From Solirubrobacterales bacterium 70-9 (lineage in GTDB: Bacteria > Actinomycetota > Thermoleophilia > Solirubrobacterales > 70-9), in NCBI GenBank assembly GCA_001898095.1, contig MKSH01000089.1, positions 15,445 through 26,493 on the forward strand: 11,049 bases of DNA, in the 5' to 3' direction. Under the pieces are notes generated by a model, which was given only the letters and a program-made list of their open reading frames with translations, did no database searches and was not told the DNA's origin. Position 1 is the first letter of the stretch. Each line of letters begins with the position of its first letter. The position numbers were made by a program, and so were the translations under genes. Below, piece after piece: positions 2,512-11,049 of this stretch.

Positions 2512-3594
2512 ATGGCCCACCCGACCTTTGAGGACGCGCGCCGTCTCAGCGACTGGCAGCCGCCGCTGGGAGTCGTCTCCGTCTACCTGGCCTTCGACCC
2601 CGCCGATCGCGGCGGTGCCTGGCGCACGGAGCTGCGCAACGGGCTCGACCAGCTGCTGGAGGCGGCCAAGGACGCCGACCACGAGCGCCGCCTCGCCCTC
2701 CGCGCGGTCGCCAGACGGATCACCGAGCGCTTCGAAGACGGCGACCACCGGCCGCCCCCGCGCGGCGCCGCCGGCTTCGTCGAGGTAGCCGAGAAGGCCG
2801 GCGAAGAACTCTGGTGGGGGACGGGCGCCGCTCCGCAGGCGGGCGCCTGCGTCGAGCTCGGCGAGACCCCCTCACTGGCGCCGCTGGTCGACCTCGCCTG
2901 CCGCGGTGAGCAGCGCGGGATCGCGATCGTCTCGCTCGAGCGCGTCCGCCTGTTGCTCTTCGCCGAAGGTGAACTGAGCGAGCTGGAGGATTGGGAGCTG
3001 GAGATCACCAGCCTCGACTGGCGCGAGCGCAAGGCGCGCACCGACGGCACCGGCCACGCGGGCCCCTCGGGCAAGGACGAATACGGCGACCGCCTCGACC
3101 ACAACCGGCACAAGTTTCTCGGCGAGGCCGGGGCTCTGGTCGGCAAGGCGCTGGCGGAGCGGGGGATCGGTCGGGCGCTGGCCTTCGGCCCGACGGTCGA
3201 CCTGGAGAGCTTCGAGGCAGGGGTGAACGCGCCCGCCCTGAAGCTGTCGCGGGGCGGCGAGACCGACCTGATCTCGACCCCGATCGGCAAGCTTCACGAG
3301 ACCGTCGCCGCGGCGGTCGAGAACGCCGACGCCGAGCGCGAGTCGCGGATCGTCGCGACGACCCTGGAAGAGTCGCGTGGCGGCAGCCGCGGCGCGACCG
3401 GCCTCCAGGACGTCGGCGAGGCGGTGGCGGAAGGCCGGGTCGAGCGCCTCGTCATGGACGCCGGCCTCGGCGGCCCGGCCGAGTCCCTGGTCCGCGGCGC
3501 CCTCGCCGCCAGCGCCAAGATCACCGTCGTCCACGGCGCCGCCGCCGAAGCTCTGGCCCCCGCCGAAGGCGCCGCCGCGATCCTGCGCTACTAA
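2512..3594 (+). CDS. baeRF-type (archaeo-eukaryotic eRF1-like) release factor homologue
   Basis: The 360-aa protein resembles the bacterial eRF1-like (baeRF/Vms1-related) family, thought to act on peptidyl-tRNA or ribosomes. The N-terminal region PPLGVVSVYLAFDP (17-30) precedes a helical stretch with repeated basic residues. The middle RGIAIVSLERVRLLLFAEG (135-153) looks like the eRF1 domain 2 core. It is followed by the basic, His-rich RERKARTDGTGHAGPSGKDE (171-190) and YGDRLDHNRHKF (191-202), where related proteins place the catalytic loop. I see no exact GGQ or GxxQ there. The C-terminal EGRVERLVMDAGL (307-319), then ITVVHG and the ending AAILRY, match the eL30-like domain 3. A strong Shine-Dalgarno GAGGAGGAG supports ATG 2512. 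Its TAA stop (3592-3594) is one copy of the MITE target duplication. Family assignment comes from recall of the domain pattern; the substrate is unknown. Confidence 0.72.
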   Translation: MAHPTFEDARRLSDWQPPLGVVSVYLAFDPADRGGAWRTELRNGLDQLLEAAKDADHERRLALRAVARRITERFEDGDHRPPPRGAAGFVEVAEKAGEELWWGTGAAPQAGACVELGETPSLAPLVDLACRGEQRGIAIVSLERVRLLLFAEGELSELEDWELEITSLDWRERKARTDGTGHAGPSGKDEYGDRLDHNRHKFLGEAGALVGKALAERGIGRALAFGPTVDLESFEAGVNAPALKLSRGGETDLISTPIGKLHETVAAAVENADAERESRIVATTLEESRGGSRGATGLQDVGEAVAEGRVERLVMDAGLGGPAESLVRGALAASAKITVVHGAAAEALAPAEGAAAILRY

Positions 3595-3759
3595 GAGGCT
3601 GTCTCAAAACCCCCGCGCACGCCTGGCGGCACCGGACACACTTCGCGGGGCGGCGTCCTCGGTCGGCCAAATGGCGCTGCCATTCGGCCTCCCTGCGTCC
3701 TACCCCCGCTCGGTCCGGCACTCGCCAGTCGCACACGCGAGTTTTGAGACAGCCTCTAA
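3592..3759. mobile_element. 162-bp palindromic MITE with TAA target duplication
   Basis: The element (3595-3756) is bounded by perfect 17-bp inverted termini, AGAGGCTGTCTCAAAAC (3594-3610) and its complement (3741-3757). Each side is flanked by TAA (3592-3594 and 3757-3759), a clean 3-bp target duplication if the element starts GAGGCTG. The two arms stay similar all the way inward and meet at a short hairpin, AATGGC-GCT-GCCATT, centred on 3677. The whole element is therefore one foldback palindrome with no room for a transposase. Termini of this type with TNA duplications are reminiscent of IS5-group elements; that link is inference. It lies between convergent genes and may also act as a transcription barrier. 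Confidence 0.82.
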
Positions 3760-3789
3760 GGCATTCGCGTGCTCTCGCGTGGGCGTTGC

Positions 3790-4551: not shown

Positions 4552-5729
4552 CGGCTGATCGCACGCAGCTTACGTGCGATCAGCCGTTCCTCCGCCTCGT
4601 CGTCGATCAGCGCCAGCGCTCGTTCGAAGGCGGCACGCGCCTCCGCCTCGCGGCCGAGCCGCGCCAGCAGCTCACCGCGGGCCGAGTGCAGGTAGCGGTA
4701 AGAGTCGAGCCCGTCGATCTTCTCGACCAACGCCAGGCCTGCTGCGGGCCCGTAGGCCTCGCCGATCGCGACCGCCCGGTTCAGCTCGACCACCGGCGAG
4801 TCGGTGAGCCGGGCGAGCTCCGCGTAGAGCGCCGCGATCTGCTCCCGGTCGCGCGGCTCGTCGGCGTGCAGCGCACCGATCGCCGCCTGCACCACGTAGG
4901 GCCCGCGGCCGCGCAGGGCGAGCGCCCGGTCGAGCGCCGCCCGTCCGCTCGCCACCGCCGCGGCGTCGTAGAGCTCCCGGTCCTGGTCGGCGAGCAGGAC
5001 GATCTCCCCGTCCCGGTCGAAGCGCGCCGCCCGCCGCGCCTCGAGCAGCAGCATCAGCGCCAGCAGGCCGTGCGCCTCAGGCTCGTCGGGCATCAGCTCG
5101 GCGAGCGCGCCGCCGAGCCGGATCGCCTCCCCGGCCAGCTCGCCGCGGCCGCCGTAGCCCTCGTTGAAGATCAGGTAGATCGTCGCCGTCACCGCCGCCA
5201 GGCGGTCGGGGAGGAGGTGGTCGGGAGGGACGCGGAAGGGGATTCCGGCGGCCTTGATCTTCGCCTTCGCCCGCACCAGCCGCTGCGCCATCGTCGGCTC
5301 GGCGACGAGGAAGGCGCGGGCGATCTCGCCGGTCTCCAGGCCGCCCAGCGTGCGCAGGGTCAGCGCCACCTGGGCCTCGGTCGAGAGCGCGGGGTGGCAG
5401 CAGGTGAAGAGCAGCTCCAGTCGTTCGTCGGGGATCGTCCCGTCCTCGTCCATCTCGGTCGCCTCCTCGGCTTCCGCCTCCAGCAGGCGCGTCTTCTCCG
5501 CCAGGACGCGGCGCCGACGCAGCGTGTCGATCGCGCGGTTGCGCCCCGTCGTCACCAGCCAGTTGGCCGGGTTCGACGGGACGCCCTCGCGCGGCCAGCG
5601 CTCGGCGGCGGTCGCGAACGCCTCCTGGGCGGCCTCCTCGGCGAGCTCGAAGTCGCCGAGGATGCCGATCAGGGCGGCGAGGACGCGACCCCAGTCCTCG
5701 CGGAACGCCTCTGCGGCGCTCGTTACCAC
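4548..5729 (-). CDS. ECF42-type RNA polymerase sigma factor with DUF6596/TPR extension
   Basis: This 393-aa protein is about twice the length of a minimal ECF sigma factor. Region 2 is at about 5-75 ([20 protein letters not shown], 26-45; [12 protein letters not shown], 63-74). Region 4 is at about 115-165 ([20 protein letters not shown], 127-146). The linker has [10 protein letters not shown] (106-115), typical of this group. A long C-terminal part follows: DUF6596 around 185-285 ([11 protein letters not shown], 184-194; [20 protein letters not shown], 219-238) and TPR-like helices to the end. This is the ECF42 layout. These factors lack an anti-sigma gene and are thought to be controlled through the extension. 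The GTG at 5729 overlaps the DGPF stop by 7 bp, which places the sigma N-terminus correctly. The upstream DGPF gene is the usual ECF42 partner. Confidence 0.93.
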
Positions 5730-6567: not shown

Positions 6568-6725
6568 AATCTTTACGATGGTTGCATCTAACGGCGTAGT
6601 ACTTTTCTGGGGCCTCGTCCCGGATTCTGTTCCGAAACGTGCAGGTTCGTTGATTGCGCGAAGTGAGATAGGCGGGAAGCAGAAACGCGGTGGCAGGCAG
6701 TGATCTCGTCAAAGGAAAACGAACG

Positions 6726-7151
6726 TTGAACGGATCGGCCCTCGACGGTCAGAGCATGGCGCGCCCGGCGCTGACCGAGATCTCCAACACTGCCGTCGCC
6801 CTGCATCGTGAGCACTTCGGCCGCGGCCCCGGGGCGGCCAAGACCCACTTCTCCGACAATCTCGTCGTCTGCGTCCTCACCGACGTGTTCACCCCGGTTG
6901 AGCGGACGCTGATCGAGGCGGGCCAGGAGTCGCGCGTGCGCGAGACCCGCGCCGCCCACCGCGCCGCCACCGACGCGACCTACAAGGCCCGCATGGAAGC
7001 CGTCATCGGCCGCCACGTCGAGGCCCACCTGAGCTCGATCAACGTCGACCCCGACGTAGCCGTGGACGTCTTCGTCCTGGGCCCGGAGCTGGACGGCCCC
7101 GGGCCAGGCATCTCAGTCGATGGCGACGGCGACGGGGCAGAGCCGGCCTAG
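6726..7151 (+). CDS. DUF2294 domain-containing protein
   Basis: The 141-aa product from TTG 6726 contains the DUF2294 pattern: ALTEISNTAVALHREHFGRG (15-34), then NLVVCVLTDVFTPVERTLIE (45-64), and near the end SSINVDPDVAVDVFVLGP (103-120). The function of this family is unknown. The acidic tail after 121 (SVDGDGDGAE) looks disordered. Three in-frame starts exist: GTG 6690, TTG 6726 and ATG 6756. I prefer TTG 6726 because AAAGGA (6711-6716) sits 9 nt upstream and because third-position GC is low over 6690-6725 but high from 6726 onward. ATG 6756 has no Shine-Dalgarno. The 5' flank is unusually AT-rich for this genome. It appears to be a single-gene unit, followed by hairpins. Confidence 0.8.
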   Translation: MNGSALDGQSMARPALTEISNTAVALHREHFGRGPGAAKTHFSDNLVVCVLTDVFTPVERTLIEAGQESRVRETRAAHRAATDATYKARMEAVIGRHVEAHLSSINVDPDVAVDVFVLGPELDGPGPGISVDGDGDGAEPA

Positions 7152-7163
7152 CGCGATGTTCCT

Positions 7164-7228
7164 GGCGCCTCGTCGGGGCGCCGGCGGGTGAGGGCTGCGA
7201 AGGGACGGGGCGCCGGAAGCTGGCGCCC
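7164..7228. terminator. Two GGCGCC-stem hairpins after the DUF2294 gene
   Basis: GGCGCC (7164-7169) pairs with GGCGCC (7177-7182) across a 7-nt loop, 12 bp after the DUF2294 stop. A second hairpin, GGGCGCC (7208-7214) with GGCGCCC (7222-7228), also has a 7-nt loop. Their place directly after a gene suggests rho-independent-like termination without a U-tract. The shared GGCGCC stems also suggest they are related to each other. Confidence 0.4.
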
Positions 7229-7251
7229 GGGGCGAGGGACGGCAAGGGACG

Positions 7252-7303
7252 CGGCCCTCTCGGATGCGGTCCGGGCAGGCTGTGACCGCATCCGAGAGGG
7301 CCG
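7252..7303. repeat. Perfect 20-bp inverted repeat, copy 1 of a hairpin family with a conserved 12-nt loop
   Basis: Arms at 7252-7271 and 7284-7303 are perfect 20-bp complements around the loop CGGGCAGGCTGT (7272-7283). The inner 40 nt (7258-7297) align without gaps to the reverse complement of 7725-7764, inside the second hairpin. The loop is identical, and several stem pairs differ by paired substitutions. This marks the two as copies of one structured repeat in opposite orientation. Confidence 0.85.
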
Positions 7304-7377
7304 GGTCACGAGGAGAGGCCGAGGGCGCGGGTCCCGTGCGGGTCCCGGGGGAGATCCGCGACGAAGGCGTCGGGAAC

Positions 7378-7404
7378 GTGACGTCTCTTCAGGGAATACG
7401 TCAC
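7378..7404. repeat. Short inverted repeat GTGACGT-N13-ACGTCAC
   Basis: Seven-base perfect arms (7378-7384 and 7398-7404) flank a 13-nt loop. GTGACGTC recurs at 7514-7521 without its partner. It may be one more hairpin of the gene-free region or a fortuitous palindrome. Confidence 0.4.
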
Positions 7405-7424
7405 ATCGGTCGCAGGTCCCCTCG

Positions 7425-7471
7425 CTCCGTTCGCTGCTTGTACGGGTATGGCGAACAAAGAGCGAACGGAG
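7425..7471. repeat. REP-like palindrome CGTTCGC-N27-GCGAACG, copy A
   Basis: CTCCGTTCGCT (7425-7435) pairs perfectly with AGCGAACGGAG (7461-7471). The core CGTTCGC and GCGAACG are 27 nt apart, exactly as in the copies at 7590-7634 and 10345-10391. Stem bases next to the core differ from those copies but still pair. An outer GCAGG/CCTGC pair (7412-7416 with 7473-7477) may extend the structure. Confidence 0.65.
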
Positions 7472-7589
7472 GCCTGCGGCGGCCCGGGATCCCCCACGGA
7501 GGCGCACGTCCGGGTGACGTCCCCCTCATCTCCCTCACGCAAGGGAGGAGATCCTCGCGCCGCGACCCTCCCGCCGCCCCCAGCCCCGG

Positions 7590-7634
7590 TGCGTTCGCAC
7601 TTGGCTCCGCTATGCGGTCATTTCTGCGAACGCA
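7590..7634. repeat. REP-like palindrome CGTTCGC-N27-GCGAACG, copy B
   Basis: TGCGTTCGCA (7590-7599) pairs with TGCGAACGCA (7625-7634). The interior holds a small hairpin, CCGC-TAT-GCGG. The copy at 10345-10391 has the same outer arms, the same 27-nt spacing and a matching inner hairpin, so the two are clearly homologous. Confidence 0.8.
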
Positions 7635-7713
7635 TCGCCCTCGGCAGCCCGGAGGGGCGACGGATGTCCCCCGCAGGCGCACGCACCCTGCGCACTTCCC
7701 CCTGAACTCGTCG

Positions 7714-7775
7714 CGTCCCGGGCGTCTCGGAGGCGGCCACAGCCTGCCCGGGTCGCCTCCGAGACGCCCGGGACG
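7714..7775. repeat. Perfect 22-bp inverted repeat, copy 2 of the conserved-loop hairpin family
   Basis: Arms at 7714-7735 and 7754-7775 are perfect 22-bp complements around an 18-nt loop that contains ACAGCCTGCCCG (7739-7750). This is the exact complement of the whole loop of the hairpin at 7252-7303. Read on the minus strand, the inner 40 nt align gaplessly to that hairpin, with an identical loop and compensated stem changes. Confidence 0.85.
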
Positions 7776-7782
7776 GCCGGAC

Positions 7783-7914
7783 CCCCGCCGCAGGCGCCCC
7801 GGATCGCGCCGCCCGTCCCCGGCCGCAGGCCCTCCGGATTTCGCCGTCCCCGCCGCAGGCGCCCCGGACCGCGCCGCCCGTCCCCGGCCGCGAGGCCTGC
7901 CTCCGGATCACGCC
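7783..7914. repeat. 65-bp GC-rich direct repeat array built of about 32-bp subunits
   Basis: A 21-bp segment at 7783-7803 recurs exactly at 7848-7868, a period of 65 bp, and the similarity continues through the remainder of both units with small indels. Each unit splits into two subunits of about 30-35 bp built on (CC)CGTCCCCGGCCGCAGG followed by CCGGAT. More degenerate subunits continue to about 8000, and similar wording fills positions 1-117. No reading frame here looks coding. Confidence 0.65.
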
Positions 7915-8006
7915 GGCCGTCGGCTCGCCTCCGCTCGCAAGCCCTCCGAATCGCCCCACGCCGTCCCCGGCGCAGGCCTCCCGAACTACCCGCTCGGTAC
8001 TCCGAT

Positions 8007-9848
8007 CTAGCTCTCGACCTTGGCCTTGACGATCTCGGTCGCGGCGGCGTAGATCGCCTCGGCGTCGATCTCGGCCGCCCGCAGCAGCTGCTCCGGGGTC
8101 GCCGAGGAGGGCATGTCCTCGACCGCGAGGATGCGGACCGCGGCGGTGGCGCTGTGCTCGGCCAAGGCGGCCAGCACGGCCTCGCCGATGCCGCCCTCCT
8201 TCCAGTGGTCCTCGACGGTGACGATCGCGCCCGTCTCCTGGGCCGCCTTGACCAGCGTCTCGTGGTCGATCGGCTTCACCGAGTAGAGGTCGATGACACG
8301 GGCCGAGATGCCCTCGCCGGCAAGGCGCTCGGCCGCGGCCAGGGCCTCGTGGAGGGTGATCCCGGCACCGACGAGGGTGACGTCGTCGCCGTCGAGCACG
8401 GTCTTCGAGCCGCCCGCCTGGAATTCCTCCGAAGCGTCGTAGAGCACCGGCGTCGCGCCGCGCGTGGTGCGCATGTAGGAGATGCCGGCGGTGTCGGCCA
8501 TGATCTCGACCAGGGCCGCGGTCGAGGTCGCGTCGCTCGGGTAGAAGACGGTCGAGCCGTGCACCGCGCGCAGGCTGGCGAGGTCCTCGAGCGCCATCTG
8601 CGAGGGCCCGTCCTCACCGATCGAGACGCCGGCGTGGGACCCGCAGAGGCGGATGTCGGCGCGGCTGATCGCCGCCATGCGGACGAAGTCGTAGGCGCGG
8701 CTGAGGAACGCCGCGAAGGTCGAGGCGAACGGGGTCCAGTGGCGCCGCACCTGGAAGCCGACCGCCGAGGCGACCATCTGCTGCTCGGCGATGTAGACCT
8801 CGACGAAGCGGTCCGGGAAGGCGTTCTTGAAGTCTTCCGAGTGGGTCGAGTTGCCGACCTCGCCGTCCAGCGCGACGATGTCGTCACGGCGGGCGCCGAG
8901 CGCCGCCAAGGCCACGCCGTACGCTTTCCGCGTCGGCACCTCCTCGCCCTTTTCCCAGGTCGGCATCTCGCCGCCGGGGGTCTCGAAGCGGTGGATGGCG
9001 GCGTCGCCCTCGGGCTTCTTCACCTCGACCCGCAAGTCGCGCTCGCCGCCCAGTTCCTCGATCGCGGCGGCCGGATCGGAGAGCGGTTTGCCGTGCTTGC
9101 CGGGCAGGTCCTCGACCTCTTTCGCGCCCTTGCCCTTCTTCGTCCGGGCGACGATCATCGTCGGCCGGTCGCTTGCTTCGGCGTTGGCGTAGGCGTCCTC
9201 GATCTCCTGCACGTCGTGGCCGTCGATCTCGAGCACGTTCCAGCCCGCCGCCTCGGCGCGCCCGCCGTAGGAGCTGAGGTCCCAGCCGTGCATCGTTTCG
9301 CCGGTCTGGCCGAGCCGGTTGACGTCGATCAGCGCGGTCAGGTTGGCAAGGCTCTGCTTGCCGGCGTGCTCGACCGCCTCCCAGATCGATCCCTCGGCCA
9401 TCTCCGAATCGCCGCAGAGGACCCAGATGCGCGAGGGCATCTTCTCCATCCGCGCCGCGGTGGCGACGCCGACGCCGATCGGCAGGCCCTGGCCGAGCGA
9501 GCCGGTGGCGACGTCGACCCAGGGCAGGATCGGGGTGGGGTGGCCTTCGAGGCGCGAGCCGAGCTTGCGGAAGGTGAGCAGCTCGTCGTCCTCGATCGCC
9601 CCGACAGCTTTCAGCACCGAGTAGTAGAGCGGCGACGCGTGGCCCTTGGAGAAGATCAGGTGGTCGTTGCGAGGGTCCTTCGGCTCGTCGAAGTCGAGCA
9701 CCAGGTGCCCGTCCAGCAGCACCGCCAGGAGGTCTGCCGCCGACATCGAGGAGGTCGGGTGCCCCGACCCCGCCGCATCGGAGGAGCGGATCGAGTCGAC
9801 CCGCAGCTGTTGGCCAAGTTCGCGCCTGAAATCCGTATCTCCGGTCAT
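8007..9848 (-). CDS. tkt: Transketolase (short, animal-type)
   Basis: This 613-aa thiamine-diphosphate enzyme moves two-carbon units between sugar phosphates in the pentose phosphate pathway. All of the N-terminal, pyrimidine-binding and C-terminal domains are present in one chain. Motifs include SGHP (28-31, H30), SKGH (67-70), GSLGQG (116-121), CGDSEMAEGSIWEA (145-158) with N177 in DVNRLGQT for cofactor and metal binding, GKHGKP (250-255), EQQMV with catalytic E355, and GSHAGVSIGEDGPSQMALED (403-422). Length and motif wording resemble animal transketolases (about 620 aa) rather than the 660-aa TktA type. The usual GDGE is GDSE here, which keeps the aspartate. ATG 9848 has no Shine-Dalgarno but a -10-like TAGCGT 7 nt upstream, so it is probably leaderless. 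Tandem DXS-like or paired half-subunit versions are excluded by the single full-length frame. Confidence 0.95.
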   Translation of the reverse strand: MTGDTDFRRELGQQLRVDSIRSSDAAGSGHPTSSMSAADLLAVLLDGHLVLDFDEPKDPRNDHLIFSKGHASPLYYSVLKAVGAIEDDELLTFRKLGSRLEGHPTPILPWVDVATGSLGQGLPIGVGVATAARMEKMPSRIWVLCGDSEMAEGSIWEAVEHAGKQSLANLTALIDVNRLGQTGETMHGWDLSSYGGRAEAAGWNVLEIDGHDVQEIEDAYANAEASDRPTMIVARTKKGKGAKEVEDLPGKHGKPLSDPAAAIEELGGERDLRVEVKKPEGDAAIHRFETPGGEMPTWEKGEEVPTRKAYGVALAALGARRDDIVALDGEVGNSTHSEDFKNAFPDRFVEVYIAEQQMVASAVGFQVRRHWTPFASTFAAFLSRAYDFVRMAAISRADIRLCGSHAGVSIGEDGPSQMALEDLASLRAVHGSTVFYPSDATSTAALVEIMADTAGISYMRTTRGATPVLYDASEEFQAGGSKTVLDGDDVTLVGAGITLHEALAAAERLAGEGISARVIDLYSVKPIDHETLVKAAQETGAIVTVEDHWKEGGIGEAVLAALAEHSATAAVRILAVEDMPSSATPEQLLRAAEIDAEAIYAAATEIVKAKVES

Positions 9849-10344: not shown

Positions 10345-10391
10345 GTGCGTTCGCACTTCTGGCCGCATAGCGGCCATTACTGCGAACTCAC
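10345..10391. repeat. REP-like palindrome CGTTCGC-N27-GCGAAC(T), copy C, between convergent genes
   Basis: GTGCGTTCGCA (10345-10355) pairs with TGCGAACTCAC (10381-10391) with one mismatch. Inside lies a perfect TGGCCGC-ATA-GCGGCCA hairpin (10360-10376). The repeat fills the gap between two convergent genes. Its right end provides the TGA stop (complement of 10388-10390) of the agmatine deiminase. It is a good candidate for a bidirectional terminator as well as a repeat. Confidence 0.8.
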
Positions 10392-11049
10392 CAGCGGGCG
10401 GGGACTTGCTGGGTGATGCAGTGAACGTTGCCGCCGCCGAGGAGGATCTCGCGGGCGGGGACGCCGACGACCTCGCGCCCGGGGAAGGCGGCGGCGAGGA
10501 TCGCGGCGGCCCCGTCGTCGCGGGCCGGGTCGAGCAGCGGGAAGACGACGCGTGAGTTGCCGAGGTAGAAGTTGACGTAGCTGGCGGCCATCCGGTCGCC
10601 GGCGCGGCGCGGCTGCGTGCCTTCGGCCGGCTCGACCCCGGCGGCCTCCGCGGCGCTGATCGTCAGCGGCCCGGGCGCGGGGAGCTTCACCACCTCGAAG
10701 GAGCGGCCGCGGGCGTCGCTCGCCGCCTCCAGCCGCGCCAGAGCGTCGACCGAGATCGCGTGCTGGGGATCGGACGGATCCTCGACCCAGGTGAGCAGTA
10801 CGACGCCGGGTCGGGCGAAGGCGGCGAGGTTGTCGACGTGGCCGTCGGTCTCGTCCTCGAAGACGCCCTCGCCGAGCCAGACCACCTTCTCGGTCCCGAG
10901 GTAGGCGTGGAGGGCCGCCTCGACCTCGCCCCGGTCCAGCTCCGGGTTGCGGTTGCGATTCAGCAGGCACTGCTCGGTGGTCAGCACCGTGCCCTCGCCG
11001 TCGACGTGGATCGCCCCGCCCTCGAGCACGATCGGCGCCCGGTAGCGGC
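10388..11049 (-). CDS. aguA: Agmatine deiminase (peptidyl-arginine deiminase type), N-terminus beyond the window
   Basis: About 219 C-terminal residues are visible. The frame stays open through 11049, so the start lies outside; whole family members are about 340-370 aa. Visible guanidino-group-modifying enzyme motifs are LEGGAIHVDGEGT, EDETDGHVDN (catalytic His codon 10840-10838) and LGGGNVHCITQQVP with the nucleophilic Cys (codon 10420-10418). Together these hydrolyse agmatine to N-carbamoylputrescine and ammonia in polyamine synthesis or agmatine breakdown. NRNRNPELDRGEVE and MAASYVNFYLGN are also typical. The usual partner, N-carbamoylputrescine amidase, is not in the window. The TGA stop is formed within the right end of a REP-like palindrome. 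Confidence 0.93.
   Translation of the reverse strand, partial: RYRAPIVLEGGAIHVDGEGTVLTTEQCLLNRNRNPELDRGEVEAALHAYLGTEKVVWLGEGVFEDETDGHVDNLAAFARPGVVLLTWVEDPSDPQHAISVDALARLEAASDARGRSFEVVKLPAPGPLTISAAEAAGVEPAEGTQPRRAGDRMAASYVNFYLGNSRVVFPLLDPARDDGAAAILAAAFPGREVVGVPAREILLGGGNVHCITQQVPARW

Follow-up and report, generated by a model that had tools for sequence, protein, structure and literature searches.

Why should two long hairpins between the ends of two convergent genes carry the same loop, letter for letter, on opposite strands, and differ in their stems? The question is raised by a stretch of 11,049 nucleotides from Solirubrobacterales bacterium 70-9 (the window, i.e., the whole stretch that was analysed), in which both hairpins, called L and R here (Table 1), fall within the 855 bp separating the stop codons of an MpsC-family gene and a transketolase gene. 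A first-pass annotation of the sequence had offered three readings, namely a mobile palindrome, a protein-binding hairpin and a structured RNA, and had added a kissing interaction between the loops. Its mobile palindrome, conserved loop and covarying stems held up in the present analysis; the kissing interaction did not, and a structured RNA is not favoured. We believe that L and R are probably the two ends of a palindromic mobile element that is non-autonomous and of the REP/BIME/BOX type; it has spread in one clade of one genus, and its hairpins may well be read mainly via the loop.

The two hairpins and their identical 12-nt loop are exactly as annotated, in position and in detail. The loop of L reads in the sense of the upstream (MpsC-family) gene; all 12 nucleotides recur on the minus strand in R, where the loop is in the sense of the transketolase gene. 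The stem of R has 25 positions, 24 of them paired: from the base, 22 uninterrupted pairs, then an A/C mismatch and two more pairs next to the loop. The inner cores align without gaps, with four stem pairs showing double, pairing-preserving changes and one pair broken (A/C), in full agreement with the annotation. Folding as DNA gave z-scores of -8.1 to -8.8 for L and R on all four strands, and for each strand 0 of 200 shuffles were as stable as the real hairpin. Against the covariance model, itself made from such copies, L scored 94.1 bits and R 76.4 bits.

Table 1. Features of the element and its flanks (positions in the window).
Feature	Position	Strand	Description
Flanking gene, MpsC family (PF10057)	6690-7151	+	stops ahead of the element
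Left tail	7152-7251		short GGGACGG-containing units, lying after the stop codon of the MpsC-like gene and before hairpin L; read in the sequence
Hairpin L	7252-7303	+	20-bp stem (arms 7252-7271, 7284-7303), loop 7272-7283 CGGGCAGGCTGT
Interior	7304-7713		no long gene; length and modules vary among copies; 28 pairs aligned
Interior hairpin module CTCCGTTCGCT...AGCGAACGGAG	7425-7471		imperfect; common to copies of similar length; sequence and alignment
Interior hairpin module GTGCGTTCGCA...TGCGAACGCA	7587-7637		repeat family member (repeat I2)
Hairpin R	7714-7775	-	arms 7714-7738, 7751-7775; loop 7739-7750
Right tail	7776-8006		degenerate ~30-bp tandem units CCGTCCCCGGCCGCAGG..CCCCGAATCGCG, reaching the transketolase stop codon; read in the sequence
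Flanking gene, transketolase	8007-9848	-	convergent; gene end at the right side of the element

Directly 3' of either stem the sequence is GC-rich and has no U-run, so neither hairpin has the make-up of an intrinsic (Rho-independent) terminator. An Rfam 15 search of the window listed six matches (E up to 5), none at the gathering score of its own family. A match of L on the minus strand to Ms_IGR-5 (RF02471; E 0.0081, 26.4 bits vs a gathering score of 45) covers only positions 121-178 of the 184 in that model and was taken as a chance similarity of GC-rich hairpins.

The loop is not peculiar to this locus. The 4.2-Mb genome contains 180 exact matches to the 12-mer, 92 on the forward strand and 88 on the reverse, and a single match to the reversed pattern that served as control; the further copies on which the annotation had staked its reading exist here and also in relatives. 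Stems, types and pairing were analysed in the first 100 of the 180 copies. The stem is 19-27 bp long with at most two mismatches in 94 of them; of the remaining six, two are interrupted by N, one is stemless, and three have a stem broken 1, 7 and 10 bp from the loop. By the 3' arm, 60 are of type L (GAGAGGGCC), 38 of type R (GAGACG) and two are unassigned. Loops less than 700 bp apart are always inverted, + and then - (28/28), and 27 of these pairs join an L with an R (in the remaining pair, N truncates one end); L and R are therefore the ends of one element, of roughly half a kilobase. The loop-to-loop distance in the 28 pairs is 261-502 bp, and a spacing of 465-467 bp recurs nine times, the window copy included.

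By exact loop, 44 of the 100 copies are single. The far end of the 33 single L copies that were inspected is often an R that is mutated, N-masked, reduced or deleted, and the covariance model recovered additional degenerate partner ends. Downstream of L at four loci (L057, L019, L049 and L080), the R hairpin was seen on inspection to be gone or cut to its outermost few bases, with the surrounding element kept; these are natural deletions of a long palindrome. In one more copy (L050, 1223-1290; G000:C60, near 23455) the R hairpin has its loop inverted inside the stem, as if flipped between the arms. Several contigs of related MAGs start or end tens to a few hundred bases from a family hairpin (in G006, contigs C23, C28, C49, C52, C65, C73 and the end of C3; also loci L212, L217 and L225), so the repeats probably break assemblies and the copy numbers are likely underestimated.

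What is kept in these hairpins? The annotation had proposed the fold and the loop rather than the stem sequence. In an alignment of 59 copies from the own genome, 97.0% of the cells are paired and 11 of the 20 pairs have changed on both sides; for 141 matches (117 distinct) from other genomes the values are 96.2% and 14 of 20. The covariation scores, 0.225 vs 0.080 in shuffles for the former and 0.371 vs 0.137 for the latter, were reached in 0 of 500 shuffles in either alignment, and the non-compensatory changes that the annotation had allowed for are not what was found. In the other-genome set, 23/500 shuffles reached the real number of double-change pairs, and 111/500 reached that of pair types; since the copies are related to each other, the shuffle outcomes are not probabilities.

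The exact loop core GGCAGGCTGT is present in 104 of the 117 distinct model matches, many of those loci having been fetched by the loop, an ascertainment to which loop constancy in most other sets is also subject. At loci fetched via neighbouring genes, 13 of 16 model matches have the exact core (the model was built on loop-bearing copies) and the other three have one or two changes in it; these 16 hairpins are of several stem types, with stems differing between species. Judging by the alignments, what is conserved is the hairpin structure, and the stem sequence is free to change, which is what the annotation had read from two copies.

It is tempting to ascribe the pairing to the palindromes themselves: template switching or arm conversion, and not selection, would keep the arms matched, and the loop would be constant from recent spread. 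Most copies are indeed near-perfect palindromes, and the deleted or base-reduced R hairpins and the loop inverted in its stem (both noted by inspection) are what hairpin-mediated errors would give. Such self-correction sits poorly with stems that vary widely across species around a decamer kept at the loop-independent sites and, with partial choice by loop, in the distinct model matches. It also leaves uncorrected an A/C mismatch that recurs at the third pair from the loop, in 16 of the 81 distinct hairpins whose loop core is exact and whose stems pair at 14 or more of 18 positions. We consider self-correction a possible but rather doubtful explanation, which can nonetheless operate alongside a mobile element.

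The kissing interaction would be an intramolecular complex of the complementary loops, 12 bp long, in one transcript or single strand. We compared 49 L/R pairs, excluding 18 adjacent pairs untypable by our crude rule. The loops are identical, i.e., fully complementary on one strand, in 27 of them, as the complex would have it, but in the other 22 they are unequal through single changes that are uncompensated; in addition, R is deleted in copies where L persists. We find this interaction hardly credible and have abandoned it.

Can the hairpins act as RNA at the 3' ends of genes? Each convergent gene would then end in a sense hairpin serving termination, processing or stability, with its loop bound by an RNA-binding protein and the whole kept by selection. 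The position of the copies bears on this device and equally on a mobile element that settles beside gene ends. None of the 61 L copies lies inside a predicted gene; 34 are between convergent, 17 between co-directional and 5 between divergent genes, and 5 are at contig edges (genes were called by a codon-usage script trained on the seven window genes). Convergent pairs account for 37 of 65 element intervals vs 8 of 84 other adjacent gene pairs at the same loci (Fisher p 5e-10). On the L side a stop codon could be identified in 37 of the 61 cases, and the loop starts 35-64 nt past it in 22 of the 37; at convergent sites each of the two hairpins shows its loop in the sense of the gene that it follows. 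The distance from the stop codon, the loop sense and the convergent excess speak for the device.

The device is opposed by the lack of a U-run 3' of either stem, by the 6 of 65 element intervals that are divergent, and by two observations set out below: the hairpins are missing at the same gene ends in relatives, and the element is clade-limited (6/201 genomes). The broken stem pairs are likewise unfavourable. Read in the loop sense, the same 81 hairpins have 39 of A-C type vs 13 of G-U type, or 23 vs 13 (not significant) if the recurrent position 3 is excluded, p being only indicative for related copies. No preference for G-U pairs is seen in the loop sense, which weighs against the structured RNA of the annotation. 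We regard the RNA device as unlikely.

The stop codons facing the element are TAG in 40/67 cases vs 36/87 in the own genome (p 0.034) and in 33/61 vs 127/335 in relatives (p 0.023). Stop-codon targeting via TAG, with a possible link to the CTAG overlaps of convergent genes, is a weak lead. Elsewhere in the window, the stops of another convergent pair enclose an inverted repeat CTAAGAGGCTGTCTCAAAAC...GTTTTGAGACAGCCTCTAAG (3591-3760; 38-nt arms, 82% complementary, 94 nt apart), which resembles either a MITE of another kind or a terminator used by both genes; a 16-bp hairpin CGGCTGATCGCACG..CGTGCGATCAGCCG with a 3-nt loop (4552-4586) occupies the junction of a metallophosphoesterase gene and a sigma-factor-like gene.

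Is the element, then, mobile? At the window site, all five other carrier genomes (5/5) have mpsC and transketolase adjacent and the element absent: the end of the mpsC similarity and the start of the transketolase similarity are 2-153 bp apart in these relatives vs about 920-930 bp in the window. Short gaps could in principle stem from deletion, yet five such losses at this site are unlikely. For 12 further copies out of the 61 L copies, the L-side gene was looked up in the five relatives. Both flanks were recognisable in 34 site comparisons: 15 gaps are of at most 150 bp, none with a model match; 6 comparisons have a family hairpin at the same place, some of another stem type; and 13 have a longer gap and no model match. 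Six further rows have a hairpin 3' of the gene and an unrecognised right flank. The tgt site measures ~600 bp in the own genome vs 10-123 bp in four relatives, the fifth having its own copy, and at three sites the right-hand similarity in one relative starts immediately after the left stop codon, with zero bases in between.

The presence and absence at orthologous sites indicates that the species gained copies, or possibly lost them, independently of each other. Since whole elements are missing there, a mobile palindrome is the best of the three options of the first-pass annotation. CTAGC occurs at both flanks of the window element, which largely follows from the two TAG stop codons; no clean target-site duplication was found between the genomes compared, which belong to different species.

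Exact loops number 180, 212, 57, 49, 24 and 16 in the six carrier genomes of the genus and 0-4 each in 55 other genomes (six of the same genus and 49 of other genera). Of the 12 genus genomes the covariance model recognised 6, and a search of 201 genomes from the order again gave 6 positives, every one from one genus; the model's counts of 117-150 per genome are not copy numbers, as up to 150 candidates were scored and palindromes can match both strands. A scan of named genomes, which may leave out records near the window, gave among the matches listed the MAGs Solirubrobacterales bacterium RYN_247 and Actinomycetota bacterium SZAS-9, -10, -14 and -15. In the matches of the scan in Poribacteria (2) and Streptomyces (1), pairing stops at the four stem pairs that the pattern itself prescribes. 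Non-carrier genomes also gave stray loop matches; in the 24 with the locus given, from 24 genomes, 1-6 of the 12 positions flanking the loop pair. Both kinds of match were rejected. Across the genomes searched, the element is limited to six species, a single clade within one Solirubrobacterales-like genus of actinobacteria.

Genome-wide copies that are numerous, dyad-symmetric and identical in their loop word might also be expected of binding sites that serve a nucleoid or chromosome-organising protein and were spread and retained on that account. We think this highly unlikely: few sites are common to species (6/34 comparisons), the copy number varies (16-212 exact loops), and the structure is long and composite with a variable interior.

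This interior is modular. The module at 7425-7471 has five better-paired relatives in the fetched loci. The family of the module at 7587-7637 has 24 copies there, 8 inside exact L-R pairs, 15 at most 600 nt from an exact loop and 1 beyond; in the window, another TGCGTTCGCA...TGCGAAC hairpin of this family stands at 10346-10403 with neither L nor R adjoining. Subfamilies differ in their interior, types other than that of the window carrying CTGAGTGAGTTGAACACACC..., GACTTTCACCCTGCC... or GATGGGCCGAAAAGCGC... hairpins. The interior hairpin families count 24, 16, 14, 8 and 5 copies in the fetched loci; only 4 of the 67 hairpins are more than 600 nt from any exact loop, and thus most of them probably belong to elements, in some cases to elements of which the second end is degenerate.

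Tail units of the GGGACGG type occur on both sides, between the hairpins and the neighbouring stop codons. One in the left tail (7200-7230) has its own small GGCGCC...GGCGCC hairpin, and similar units are found between the stop codon and L in other copies; units like those of the right tail also adjoin other R ends. A 16-base word of the right tail has 14 exact matches in the own genome; the four that adjoin listed exact R copies lie 57-61 bp beyond the loop. As to coding content, the longest complete ORF inside each of the 28 pairs has 26-144 codons, and spacings within one subfamily (465, 466, 467, 458) differ by non-multiples of three. An autonomous copy is ruled against by these ORFs and by the short spacing of the pairs.

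The search for a mobilising enzyme covered three families. Y1 transposase (PF01797) was found in 0 of the 12 genus genomes (drafts, completeness 78-100%), the control being positive in 5 of 14 known genomes. A reverse transcriptase is present in one of six carriers and one of six non-carriers of the genus, so there is no association with carriers. Integron integrase exceeds the TIGR02249 cut-off in none of the 12 genomes; matches below it occur in all 12, and also in all 14 controls. No transposase is among the 21 Pfam families seen at least twice in 124 genes near copies (best 25 of 155 families viewed), the recurrent families being ordinary chromosomal ones; PHROGs likewise gave no mover for genes near copies (best 25 of 72 families viewed).

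Loss of SbcD, a hairpin nuclease subunit, was considered as the cause of accumulation and rejected: all 12 genus genomes, carriers and non-carriers alike, are below the TIGR00619 cut-off, so SbcD cannot tell one from the other. Weaker matches occur in 7 of the 12, and 8 of 14 controls are above the cut-off. The lack of SbcD above the cut-off in these genomes (G000-G011) is possibly a background permissive for long palindromes, with the reservation that the sensitivity of the NCBIfam model in this group may differ.

Integron attC sites are recognised as folded single-stranded hairpins, with structure more important than stem sequence. The ends of IS200/IS605-derived elements are recognised in the same manner, and the element resembles both in this respect; it differs in belonging to a genus without Y1 transposase and without integron integrase above the cut-off. 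Like MITEs, it is non-autonomous, dispersed and absent at empty sites; a MITE-type partner transposase with matching ends was not found in the searches made.

By its sequence features the element is most like REP/BIME/REPIN and BOX repeats, and it does not belong to the REP family. REP, BIME and REPIN repeats are high-copy intergenic palindromes that form inverted dimers of unlike ends near 3' ends, and REP repeats are mostly between convergent or co-directional genes (PMC3733652). The present copies are likewise inverted dimers (28/28 inverted), intergenic (0/61 L in genes) and positioned at 3' ends. The behaviour is similar, but the anatomy is not. In the sections of PMC3733652 used here, CGTC-family REPs have an 8-9 bp stem, a 4-5 nt loop and an unpaired tag, and most REP dimers have spacers of 20-100 bp; here the stems are of 19-27 bp with a 12-nt loop, and the loops are spaced by 261-502 bp. 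An unpaired GTAG or CGTC foot is lacking (L begins AAGGGACSCGGCC, and the CGTC at R is paired within the stem), as is the Y1 (RAYT) transposase in the 12 genus genomes. What moves repeat families that lack a RAYT is in general not known, as PMC3733652 states for CGTC REPs. The TnpA-REP enzymes contact hairpin irregularities and, in some REPtrons, loops, according to the portion of PMC8266576 used here, and this is a precedent both for reading of the loop and for the recurrent A/C mismatch near it.

The BOX repeats of Streptococcus pneumoniae are described, in the part of PMC3049150 drawn on here, as modular, non-coding, dispersed and lineage-limited, with constant ends and a variable interior, and are judged parasitic; BOX and RUP cause target duplications. 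We liken the element to BOX by architecture, as it too has constant ends and a modular interior differing between subfamilies. The phylum is another one, however, and end hairpins with an invariant 12-nt loop are not among the BOX features described in that part of the source. Within the open-licence literature we found no description of such repeats in this bacterial group or with these features.

As far as can be judged from sequence, the element-wide empty sites, the fixed geometry of its ends and its clade-limited amplification show the element to be non-autonomous and mobile. As the stems drift in pairs and the loop stays, the ends may well be read as folded hairpins via the loop. The ends would be extruded or single-stranded hairpins, recognised mainly by the loop plus the presence of a stem, the sequence of which would be irrelevant. 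An enzyme supplied in trans would insert or copy the element beside gene ends, and the interior hairpins and tail repeats may be passengers or accretions. It is conceivable, and we propose it tentatively, that this is a new mobilisation system of Actinomycetota, in which ends with little stem sequence in common, the stems being free to drift, and with the same 12-nt loop are served by a trans-acting enzyme, neither Y1 nor integron, that reads the loop of folded DNA and delivers the element to the overlapping or adjoining stops of convergent genes.

Palindromic repeats are common. In this family a near-constant loop and drifting stems are combined with about 200 exact loops in each of two genomes and with ready empty-site comparisons, and the question of what mobilises orphan palindromes is therefore directly testable here. 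It is a clean case in which the recognised feature seems to be the folded structure and not the duplex sequence.
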